Shown piece after piece: positions 31,987 through 34,602 of a stretch of DNA of 44,585 nucleotides (position 1 is its first letter; every line of letters begins with the position of its first letter). The position numbers and the translations under genes were made by a program. Source of the DNA: Bacteroidales bacterium (GTDB lineage: Bacteria > Bacteroidota > Bacteroidia > Bacteroidales > UBA7960); assembly GCA_003559855.1 (NCBI GenBank), contig PWJZ01000099.1, positions 1 through 44,585 on the forward strand, given 5' to 3'. The notes beneath the pieces were generated by a model. The model did no database searches and was not told the DNA's origin. It was given only the letters and a program-made list of their open reading frames with translations.

Positions 31987-33387
31987 TCAGAAAAACATGA
32001 TTGTGGCGACGCTGAAATATATTAACAATCCTGTAGCATCTACCAATGTTGTAATAGCCGGGCTGGCAGCTACTGCCGGGTCGCCACCTAGCCTGCTTAC
32101 TATAAGGGGCAGGCTGGCGCCTATGAGTGTTGACGAGATAACTTGAAGGCTGAGAGCTATTGCGATGCCGGTCCCAACAAAAGCAAGGGTGAGTTCCCCC
32201 GGTATTGGAACATTGAATAACGATGTAAGTAATAAAACATTACCGAACGTTATGATTCCTATTACCAGTCCTAATAATATGCTGATCCTTGCTTCTTTAA
32301 GCAATATTTTAAACCATTGCTGAATTCTGACCTGTCCCAGGGCCATTGCACGAATTACAATAGTTGCGGCCTGGCTGCCGGTATTTCCACCGGTATCTGC
32401 AACCATAGGCATATAAAAGGCAAGAATTACCAATGAGGCTATTGCATCTTCAAATCTGTGAATGACAATCCCGGTCAGCAACCCCATAACCGCAAGAATA
32501 GCAACCCAAACCACCCTTTTCCTGAAATGCGAAACAGGCTTGGTCTCTATATAGTTAAGCTCTTCCTCTTCTGTTGTGGCCGGCAGAATACCCATGAATT
32601 TTTCCATATCCTCGGTTTGCTCCGCCCTGATTACATCAATTGCTTCATCATGACGGACAATACCTGCCAGTTGATTTAACTGGTTTATTACAGGTATTGC
32701 CACAAGGTCATATTTTTCTATTTTATTGGCAACACTTTCACGGTCCTCCTCCACCTCGGCAAAAGCATAATCAGTTTGCAAAAACTCTTTTACTTTCGTA
32801 TCGGGCTCAGCCATTATCAGATCTTTAAGAGTGGTAAAACCTTTCAGCTTCATCTGATTATCTACCACATACAGATAGTAGATCATTTTATTTGAAGGTG
32901 CGTCTTTTCTTACTTTTTCAATAGCCTGCGATGCAGTCATATCTTCCAGCAGAGTAGCAAAATCGGTGCTCATGATACCACCGGCGGTTTCAGGATCATA
33001 TGAGCTCAAATGCGTTACGTCTTCACGGGTCTTCTTGTTTAGAAAAGGCAATAACTGCAACTGTTTCTCACGATCAAGCTCCTGGTATAAATCGGCACGG
33101 ATATCAGATGCCATATAAGTGAAAATGTCGGCAAATGATTTACGGTCAAGCATATCAAACAGCTTCATCTGCTTTTCACGGTCAAAATCCGAAACTATAT
33201 AACCCTGCTCTTCATTGTTGAAAAGCCCCAATACATCCAAAAGAATATCATCCTCAAGACCGTCAAGGATCTCTACGACTTCTATTACAGGCATTTTTTT
33301 CAATACCGCCACAAGAGCTTCCCATTCCTGTGCCCGTATCAATCCTTCTATTATGATATTTTTTTGTTCTTTATCTAAATTAACCAT
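31987..33387 (-). CDS. mgtE: Magnesium transporter MgtE
   Basis: A Mg2+ channel/transporter of the inner membrane, 466 residues. Domains: the MgtE N superhelical domain (~10-140, with alternating LF...LDREKQ repeats), two CBS domains (~145-265; VDNQMKLKGFTTLKDL, LAGIVRHDEAIDVI), the plug helix, and five membrane helices (~295-466) with the selectivity motif GGNTGSQAATIVIRAMALGQV and VSRLGGDPAVAASPAITTLVDATGL. Full length, with start at the ATG at 33387. Expression is almost certainly controlled by the M-box riboswitch and terminator upstream (33561-33800), which stops transcription when Mg2+ is high; about 175 untranslated bases separate the terminator from the start codon. Confidence 0.95.
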   Translation of the reverse strand: MVNLDKEQKNIIIEGLIRAQEWEALVAVLKKMPVIEVVEILDGLEDDILLDVLGLFNNEEQGYIVSDFDREKQMKLFDMLDRKSFADIFTYMASDIRADLYQELDREKQLQLLPFLNKKTREDVTHLSSYDPETAGGIMSTDFATLLEDMTASQAIEKVRKDAPSNKMIYYLYVVDNQMKLKGFTTLKDLIMAEPDTKVKEFLQTDYAFAEVEEDRESVANKIEKYDLVAIPVINQLNQLAGIVRHDEAIDVIRAEQTEDMEKFMGILPATTEEEELNYIETKPVSHFRKRVVWVAILAVMGLLTGIVIHRFEDAIASLVILAFYMPMVADTGGNTGSQAATIVIRAMALGQVRIQQWFKILLKEARISILLGLVIGIITFGNVLLLTSLFNVPIPGELTLAFVGTGIAIALSLQVISSTLIGASLPLIVSRLGGDPAVAASPAITTLVDATGLLIYFSVATIMFF

Positions 33388-33827: not shown

Positions 33828-33859
33828 CAAAGATACAAATATTTTATTGAAAATTCAAA
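33828..33859 (-). promoter_or_regulatory. Promoter of the M-box/mgtE transcript
   Basis: Minus-strand TTTG (33859-33856), a 20-base spacer and TATCTTTG (33835-33828) match the Bacteroidota consensus. Transcription would begin near 33821, about 25 bases before the aptamer P1 strand. Confidence 0.65.
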
Positions 33860-33951
33860 ACAAAACCCATATAAAATATCAAAAAAAACATTAATTAAAT
33901 CACGTATTAAAGAATGGTGAAAATACTGTTCTGTGTTGAAAATAAGTTAAT

Positions 33952-33959
33952 TACTTTTG
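33952..33959 (+). promoter_or_regulatory. Putative -7 element of a small RNA
   Basis: TACTTTTG matches TAnnTTTG. The -33 region has no clean TTTG at 19-21 bases (a GTTG lies 13 bases upstream). It predicts a transcript from about 33966 to the terminator at 34103. Confidence 0.4.
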
Positions 33960-33965
33960 ATTAGC

Positions 33966-34103
33966 TATTTTACCAAACCAGTTTGGTTTTCGATTAGTTT
34001 AATAGTTTCGTTAGTTTTTTCGTTAATTTTTGGTTAATGTTGTTTTTGTTTTAGTGATCAATAAAGGGCAGGAGACGGGGTAAAACCCGTCTCTTGTTTT
34101 TTT
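33966..34103 (+). ncRNA. Candidate small RNA, about 138 nt
   Basis: A -7 element at 33952-33959 and a strong intrinsic terminator ending at 34103 bound a stretch with no ORF: the only ATG, near 34037, opens a 5-codon frame. The RNA would carry a near-palindromic ACCAAACCAGTTTGGTT hairpin near its start, a U-rich GTTAGTTT/CGTTAATTT middle, and the terminator hairpin. No plus-strand gene lies upstream that the terminator could serve, since mgtE is divergent. Its family is not recognised. Confidence 0.5.
34072..34103 (+). terminator. Rho-independent terminator of the candidate small RNA
   Basis: GAGACGGG (34072-34079), a 6-base loop and CCCGTCTC (34086-34093) make an 8-bp perfect stem followed by TTGTTTTTTT. 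No T-run exists on the opposite strand. The nearest plus-strand gene upstream is over 3 kb away. Confidence 0.8.
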
Positions 34104-34157
34104 AGAGGCCGATATTCGGATAATTCCCGGTTGAAATCATGCAAAACATTTTATCGT

Positions 34158-34165
34158 TATATTTG
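34158..34165 (+). promoter_or_regulatory. Putative -7 element for yjbQ
   Basis: TATATTTG matches TAnnTTTG; TTG at 34131-34133 is 24 bases upstream, longer than ideal. The predicted leader is about 26 bases. Confidence 0.4.
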
Positions 34166-34197
34166 CAACACAGTCATTAATCCTAATCACTGCGAGT

Positions 34198-34602
34198 ATG
34201 CAGGACATTATTACAATAGAGACGCACAGACGTGAAGCATTGTACGACATTACTTCAGAAGTGAAATATGTTCTGTCCGGTAGCGGAATATCACATGGTT
34301 TGATAAATGTTTATGCCCAGGGCGCTACAGCGGCAATTATGATACAGGAAGGCTGGGATGAAAGCGTACTGACTGATATGATAACGCTGCTTAAAAAATA
34401 TATTCCCCAAGGGGTATGGCTGCACGATGCACAAGACGGTAACGCAGATGCCCACCTCAAAGCCGGAATAATAGGACCTTCCGAAACAATTCCCGTTATT
34501 GACGGAAAACTGGGATTATCAACATGGCAAAATATCTTTTTTTGTGAGTTCGACGGTCCGAGAAAAAAAAGAAATATTGCCCTTACAGTTGTGAAATTGT
34601 GA
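34198..34602 (+). CDS. YjbQ/UPF0047 family protein
   Basis: 134 residues, complete, cytoplasmic. The family signatures are GLINVYAQGATAAIMIQEG (~40-58), then DGNADAHLKAGIIGPSETIPVIDGKLGLSTWQNIFFCEFDGPR (~80-123). The invariant His/Asp/Glu residues lie in DGNADAHLK and GPSE. Members are annotated as secondary thiamine-phosphate synthase because E. coli YjbQ shows weak activity in vitro; the physiological role is not settled. There are no thiamine genes nearby. It starts at the ATG at 34198, after a -7 element, and stands alone between the small RNA and the GWxTD gene. Confidence 0.9.
   Translation: MQDIITIETHRREALYDITSEVKYVLSGSGISHGLINVYAQGATAAIMIQEGWDESVLTDMITLLKKYIPQGVWLHDAQDGNADAHLKAGIIGPSETIPVIDGKLGLSTWQNIFFCEFDGPRKKRNIALTVVKL

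Follow-up and report, generated by a model that had tools for sequence, protein, structure and literature searches.

What is encoded between mgtE and yjbQ in the genome of this Bacteroidales bacterium? In the window—i.e., the whole 44,585-nucleotide stretch of DNA that was analyzed—the plus strand of this gap carries a promoter-like site, some 140 bases free of open reading frames (ORFs), and a strong terminator. A preliminary description of the DNA had pointed to this arrangement, and it is now confirmed by the sequence, by covariation, and by the placement of the promoter motif in relatives (Table 1). The RNA was then taken for an orphan, a description that no longer holds: 37 further genomes of the family carry it, and a candidate RNA partner exists. 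We consider it probable that the gene specifies a trans-acting antisense small RNA (sRNA), restricted to one family, that acts on a structured RNA element. The sRNA gene, the structured element, the restriction of both to the family, and the complementarity between them are established computationally; the consequences of their pairing are set out below in conditional terms.

Table 1. Positions of the sRNA gene, its parts and neighbors in the window, and of the candidate partner in the same genome (G000)
Feature	Position	Strand	Basis or remark
sRNA gene (predicted), ~140 nt	33964..34103	+	start inferred from the -7 element; covariance model, ORF and fold analysis
-7-like element TACTTTTG, sRNA promoter (putative)	33952..33959	+	sequence; motif placement in family loci
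Conserved core GGTTAATGTTGTTTTTGTTTTAGTG	34032..34056	+	antisense to partner element; 34032-34042 are its first 11 bases
11-base direct repeats reaching into core	34008..34037	+	TTTTTCGTTAA / TTTTTGGTTAA; TCGTTAGTTTT / TCGTTAATTTT
Intrinsic terminator	34069..34103	+	stem 34069-34079 / 34086-34096, then T-rich run
M-box riboswitch of mgtE, Rfam RF00380	33630..33800	-	149 bits; context, outside sRNA
mgtE	31987..33387	-	MgtE domains; context, divergent from sRNA
yjbQ/UPF0047 gene	34198..34602	+	3′ neighbor of sRNA; context, outside sRNA
Partner element, own-genome copy (L255)	contig C94, 97857-97990	+	structured RNA model

Across the ~140 nt of the predicted gene, no plus-strand ORF of at least 40 amino acids was found, and the plus-strand frame opening at 34038 has, by eye, just five codons (ATGTTGTTTTTGTTTTAG). 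The arms of the terminator stem (CAGGAGACGGG and CCCGTCTCTTG) are 91% complementary, and the T-rich run behind them ends at 34103. When folded, the RNA was more stable than 200 of 200 shuffled sequences (z = -4.4), an excess that we put down mainly to the terminator. This terminator was absent from the output of a simple terminator scan, and simple scans returned promoter- and terminator-like sites about as frequently as in shuffled sequences. Rfam scans, run on the window at the gathering cut-offs and on the gap at E ≤ 10, gave no credible match on the plus strand, and the earlier reading could likewise not match the RNA to a known family; the M-box lies on the minus strand, opposite to the sRNA, as had also been described.

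To whom does this gene belong? In a first DNA search of 98 genomes, convincing matches fell on the U/G-rich core of the RNA in relatives from the same family. Of 47 genomes from the family to which the window belongs, 38 matched a covariance model of the sRNA (E ≤ 7.2e-9), namely the window's own and 37 others. Outside the family, 119 genomes gave a weak model match at E ≤ 0.1 (best E 5.6e-7; the order sample held 393 genomes, 6 of them from the family), and among the 15 best of these matches one had a partial core and one a core at three edits, the rest being without an acceptable core. At L108, in a genome of another family (G088), a partial GGTTAATG core is accompanied by a terminator and no syntenic neighbor was seen within 3 kb; this locus is a possible distant relative. 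L120 (G173) has a core within three edits and was rejected as an orthologue, since we interpret it as belonging to a lipoprotein gene. The window's own genome holds a second weak match to the model (L121; contig C38, 24798-24894, minus strand; E 7.7e-5), which is intergenic and has several GGTT motifs ahead of a terminator-like stem; it is possibly another sRNA.

The core itself, at up to three mismatches, was present in 32 of the 47 family genomes. It is single copy in 31 of these 32, G036 being the sole family genome with a second copy (at three mismatches). The same search found the core in 6 of 295 genomes of the order, three of them from the family and the three others matching at three mismatches. 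GTDB contigs yielded 27 exact or one-gap core matches, all of them titled as Bacteroidota metagenome-assembled genomes (MAGs), and 17 of the 27 bear isolate names (CSSed, B1Sed, T1Sed, and T3Sed) that we take to be those of a soda-lake sediment series. Viral contigs gave 0 core matches, and a viral origin of the sRNA was rejected. As far as searched, the predicted sRNA is confined to one Bacteroidales family.

Within the family, GGTTAATGTTG was invariant across all 30 aligned sRNA sequences, which had been picked from the 38 family loci by core likeness (at most four edits), a choice that favors a conserved core; a copy found later, in G028, has one change in the first 11 core bases and reads GGTTGATGTTG. 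The aligned loci have GGTTAATGTTGTTTTTGTTTTRGTG or near variants in common, with variable sequence on both sides. Mean pairwise identity, calculated over 37 of the 38 loci, as were the promoter-motif figures, was 100% for the first 11 core bases and 94% for all 25, vs. 57% for the upstream part and 50% for the terminator. Rows left out were L014, whose core region is the same as that of L011, and L017 and L031, first-search matches without the core. We read the sRNA as noncoding because G008, G014, and G023 miss one T inside the core; no reading frame is conserved, and a small protein as the product was rejected on this ground.

Of 37 family loci, 36 have a relaxed -7 motif, TAnnTT[TG], at 36-88 nt 5′ of the core, whereas each of six control stretches had it in 3-10 of 36-37; the motif had been relaxed only after the alignment had been inspected. 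The strict form present in the window, TAnnTTTG, occurred in 2 of 37 loci vs. 0-4 in the controls. A two-box promoter pattern fitted 30 of the 37 loci; the window, by eye, has no evident -33 box at the customary distance. Judged from the motif alone, the sRNA would have a promoter of its own. In the terminator, each of the 10 predicted pairs has a compensatory change of both bases in one or more of the 30 sequences; one to eight cells per pair are broken. A long-range stem around the core was supported in part of genus g3 and in genus g5, not in the window's genus. The first proposal was to fall if relatives that keep the mgtE-yjbQ gap did not conserve the hairpins. G003, the one other locus among those examined with this gap, does not refute it: by eye, the terminator stem is kept there with different bases, though the hairpin placed near the 5′ end is not, and by eye this hairpin is not conserved among the aligned relatives. 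The promoter and terminator pattern is, across these loci, in excess of chance, and what we predict between mgtE and yjbQ is a conserved, real sRNA gene. Of the two identities first offered, a regulatory sRNA or a 6S-like RNA, the former fits the conserved core, the terminator, and the placed promoter motif.

The genes around the sRNA are partly shared. At least one of three common neighbors (a protein of ~210 aa without a Pfam match, an aldehyde dehydrogenase, and a radical-SAM gene) lies within 4 kb in 30 of 35 loci; none of the three was seen in G010. Among the 35 loci, mgtE and yjbQ flank the sRNA in the window and G003 alone, and a link to mgtE or its M-box was rejected accordingly; in G002, from the same genus as the window, the radical-SAM gene lies directly 3′ of the sRNA instead. 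The sRNA is missing from its syntenic place in G005, where the neighbor matches end ~10 bp apart, and in G006 the contig breaks off toward the expected sRNA site, inside the radical-SAM gene.

What might the core recognize? A second RNA element, itself covarying, carries the complement of the core in its unpaired 3′ strand. Searches for this complement gave scattered matches: in eight genomes, those to a 15-mer complement were as numerous as those to a reversed control (28 vs. 28), and a 17-mer complement at up to two mismatches gave 96, including 7 at the sRNA genes, as against 59 for its reversal. Some of the matches to the core complement fell in one orthologous place, within a long hairpin, and the site there reads CAACAUURRCC, complementary to the seed GGUUAAUGUUG. 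A model of this element matched in 42 of the 47 family genomes; of the order sample, it matched all 6 family genomes and 0 of the 387 others. Both RNAs are found in 34 of the 47 genomes, several of which are incomplete MAGs; four have the sRNA without the element (G004, G019, G040, and G042), eight the element without a detected sRNA (G005, G006, G009, G012, G015, G020, G035, and G046), and one has neither (G001). Over 42 distinct element copies, 92.1% of cells were paired, compared to 33-46% when the pairing was slid by one to three columns. Double-sided changes were seen in 17 of 28 pairs of these copies, whose alignment was fitted to the model, and in 5 of 28 pairs in an unfitted alignment of 13 copies. 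The element rows of L258 (G003, contig C132) and L259 (G015, contig C302) are identical though their genera differ, which suggests cross-contamination of the two MAGs.

An ECF-type sigma gene lies 3′ of the element in 23 of 23 loci, with a gene that reads as lipoprotein-like in between in 16 of the 23. On the 5′ side, 20 of 23 loci have a gene that reads as TPR-like; the window's own genome differs here. In G002, G010, and G015 (L254, L251, and L252), the element lies within an intact ORF of ~220 aa, which had no Pfam match (one copy scanned) and reads as membrane-protein-like; this ORF was not found in the remaining 20 of the 23 loci. Its frame was stopped or shifted in all seven of the loci translated in the plus frames (G000, G009, G012, G014, G016, G022, and G026), some frame still being open across the short element in G009, G012, G014, and G016, and unrelated ORFs of at least 70 aa overlap the element in several g3 loci. 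In the 37 copies outside g1 and g8, 19 of which were checked for the ~220-aa ORF, the stem persists and the seed complement is for the most part retained, while the neighboring hairpin varies. The element is likely noncoding. In g3, by eye, a strong terminator-like hairpin follows it 3′. The element might be an independent RNA or form the leader of the sigma operon.

To assess the match between the two RNAs quantitatively, we compared own and swapped partners, leaving out L259, the second G015 copy, whose row equals that of G003. With the register fixed, the 11 seed columns of 34 genomes comprise 374 cells, 368 of which were standard pairs, with seven T-G and one G-T. The breaks are one each in G030, G013, and G044, and one at a common column in G018, G038, and G039; these last three sRNAs bind their own element less well than they bind 13-14 of the 16 others in g3. 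Reciprocal double changes occur in G021 in column 13 and in G030, G034, and G043 in columns that immediately precede the seed, flanking columns that hold many mismatches as well. When partners were swapped within genera, 7 of 20,000 permutations matched the energy of the own pairs, and in g3 alone 29 of 20,000 did so (503 when g3 was collapsed to 12 dissimilar genomes), counts that overstate independence, as the permutations ignore the tree. Genus g5 gave no signal, with 16,002 of 20,000 permutations as good. A plain pair count over a 24-column register was not significant (own 608 vs. a swapped mean of 604, of 816; 2,509 of 20,000 permutations as high). Own pairs thus appear to be preferred over swapped pairs in one of the two tests, by energy and not by pair count.

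With shuffled sRNAs, 32 of 3,400 cases were as good in energy as the own pair and, for the window's own genome, 3 of 1,000; for the same genome, 138 of 8,863 window segments attained the duplex energy of the element as first computed (-20.0). The element thus stands out by its conservation; by energy alone it would not. G020, which has no sRNA match better than E 0.037 and no intact complement, speaks for pairing; against it speak the eight genomes with the element but no detected sRNA, among them G005, where the complement is intact although the sRNA is missing. Retention of the seed complement in the element might also stem from a protein-coding past. Taking the sequence data as a whole, the sRNA most likely regulates the element's transcript as an antisense RNA or titrates it.

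A different possibility, which we regard as unlikely, is that the sRNA acts in trans to repress a number of mRNAs by covering A/C-rich translation starts, much as GibS and FopS act at starts, the element being one target or a coincidence. The surplus of 17-mer complement matches over the reversed pattern speaks for it, and in G008 and G023 CTAAAACAAAAACAACATG lies, by eye, at an apparent start codon. However, that site sets five A against four T in the sRNA of the same genomes, the 25-base core at up to three mismatches has a sole extra site in the 47 genomes (in G036), and among the few loci examined no orthologous mRNA start recurs in several genera. The sRNA might also act mainly via a protein bound to its U/G-rich strand, with the complementarity to the element incidental, which seems to us quite improbable. 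A near-unchanging U-rich strand of 25 nt with variable flanks would fit a protein site too, and RbpB is reported to bind sRNAs in Bacteroides (PMC11697453); yet the 11 most conserved bases are the ones that find their complement in the conserved, unpaired strand of another RNA confined to the family.

That the sRNA is a 6S-like RNA, as was first suggested alongside a regulatory role, is very improbable. Like 6S RNA (RF00013), it is noncoding and has a fitting length and a large unpaired middle; moreover, a 6S RNA is reported in Bacteroides (PMC7366714), so the window's family should have one, and none was found in the eight family genomes searched. In contrast to 6S RNA, the sRNA has no model match (none at E ≤ 10 in 33850-34200), its ends are unpaired, no closing stem surrounds a central bubble, and its 3′ end is the hairpin of an intrinsic terminator. 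The 6S model gave nothing over the cut-off in the eight family genomes, a weak search, since the model passed its cut-off in only 4 of 14 control genomes. For the element, three copies gave a single, spurious Rfam match at E ≤ 1, but as the 6S model may miss Bacteroidota, the element may yet be a 6S RNA. A chance promoter and terminator in AT-rich intergenic DNA, where simple scans find such sites about as often as in shuffles, has next to no probability given orthologues in 38 of 47 family genomes, a near-invariant core, and a compensating terminator.

Antisense or titrating action of the sRNA on the element has parallels. Enterobacterial sponge and decoy pairs, such as ChiX-chb and SroC-GcvB, share complementary segments, and one RNA possibly titrates the other. 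Unlike in those pairs, a structured element that covaries is the partner here, and in most genomes examined it is without the ORF present in a few. In Bacteroides thetaiotaomicron, GibS and FopS are reported to be base-pairing sRNAs with a conserved seed and mostly a promoter of their own, FopS being ~65-70 nt long with 14 paralogues, a seed in its 5′ part, and the starts of susC-type mRNAs as targets (PMC11697453). The present RNA is alike in being a Bacteroidota sRNA with its own promoter motif and a conserved seed. It differs from FopS in being single copy in nearly every genome (multicopy paralogues were absent from 31 of the 32 core-bearing genomes), in its predicted length of ~100-136 nt, in a core 45-80 nt 3′ of the -7 element, and in having a structured RNA element as candidate partner. 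MasB of the same species is reported to be a narrowly conserved sRNA of ~100 nt with its target site within the coding region of a TPR-protein mRNA (PMC10994844). Size and narrow conservation are shared with MasB, as is a site inside an ORF in G002, G010, and G015, whereas the target of MasB is a TPR-protein mRNA and the partner here a structured element. Of the Bacteroidota sRNAs compared, FopS/GibS and MasB come closest in kind. Within the literature collection searched, no paper was found to describe this sRNA or the element.

How would the pair work? The sRNA would be transcribed from its own promoter and stop at the intrinsic terminator, and the near-invariant seed in its U/G-rich middle would pair with the unpaired 3′ strand of the element, provided that both RNAs are transcribed and meet in the cell. 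Pairing might then alter the fate of the element's transcript, through read-through of a leader towards the sigma gene or through stability, or else one RNA might titrate or sequester the other; this last stage is the weakest step of the proposal. A further, tentative possibility, which we hold to be somewhat doubtful, is that a gene lost its coding role and that its middle was kept as a noncoding, sRNA-binding RNA that co-evolves with the seed, both RNAs controlling the ECF sigma operon. The coding role would in that case have been lost perhaps more than once, and the stem and the sRNA site would have outlasted the reading frame.

With these results, what had been an orphan hairpin becomes a defined sRNA family with a specific candidate partner, in a family of Bacteroidales represented here by metagenome-assembled genomes alone (27 of 27 titles). 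If the pairing is real, it would be a natural case of an RNA element kept for antisense binding after the decay of an ORF, and, if true, this would bear on the origin of regulatory RNAs from genes.
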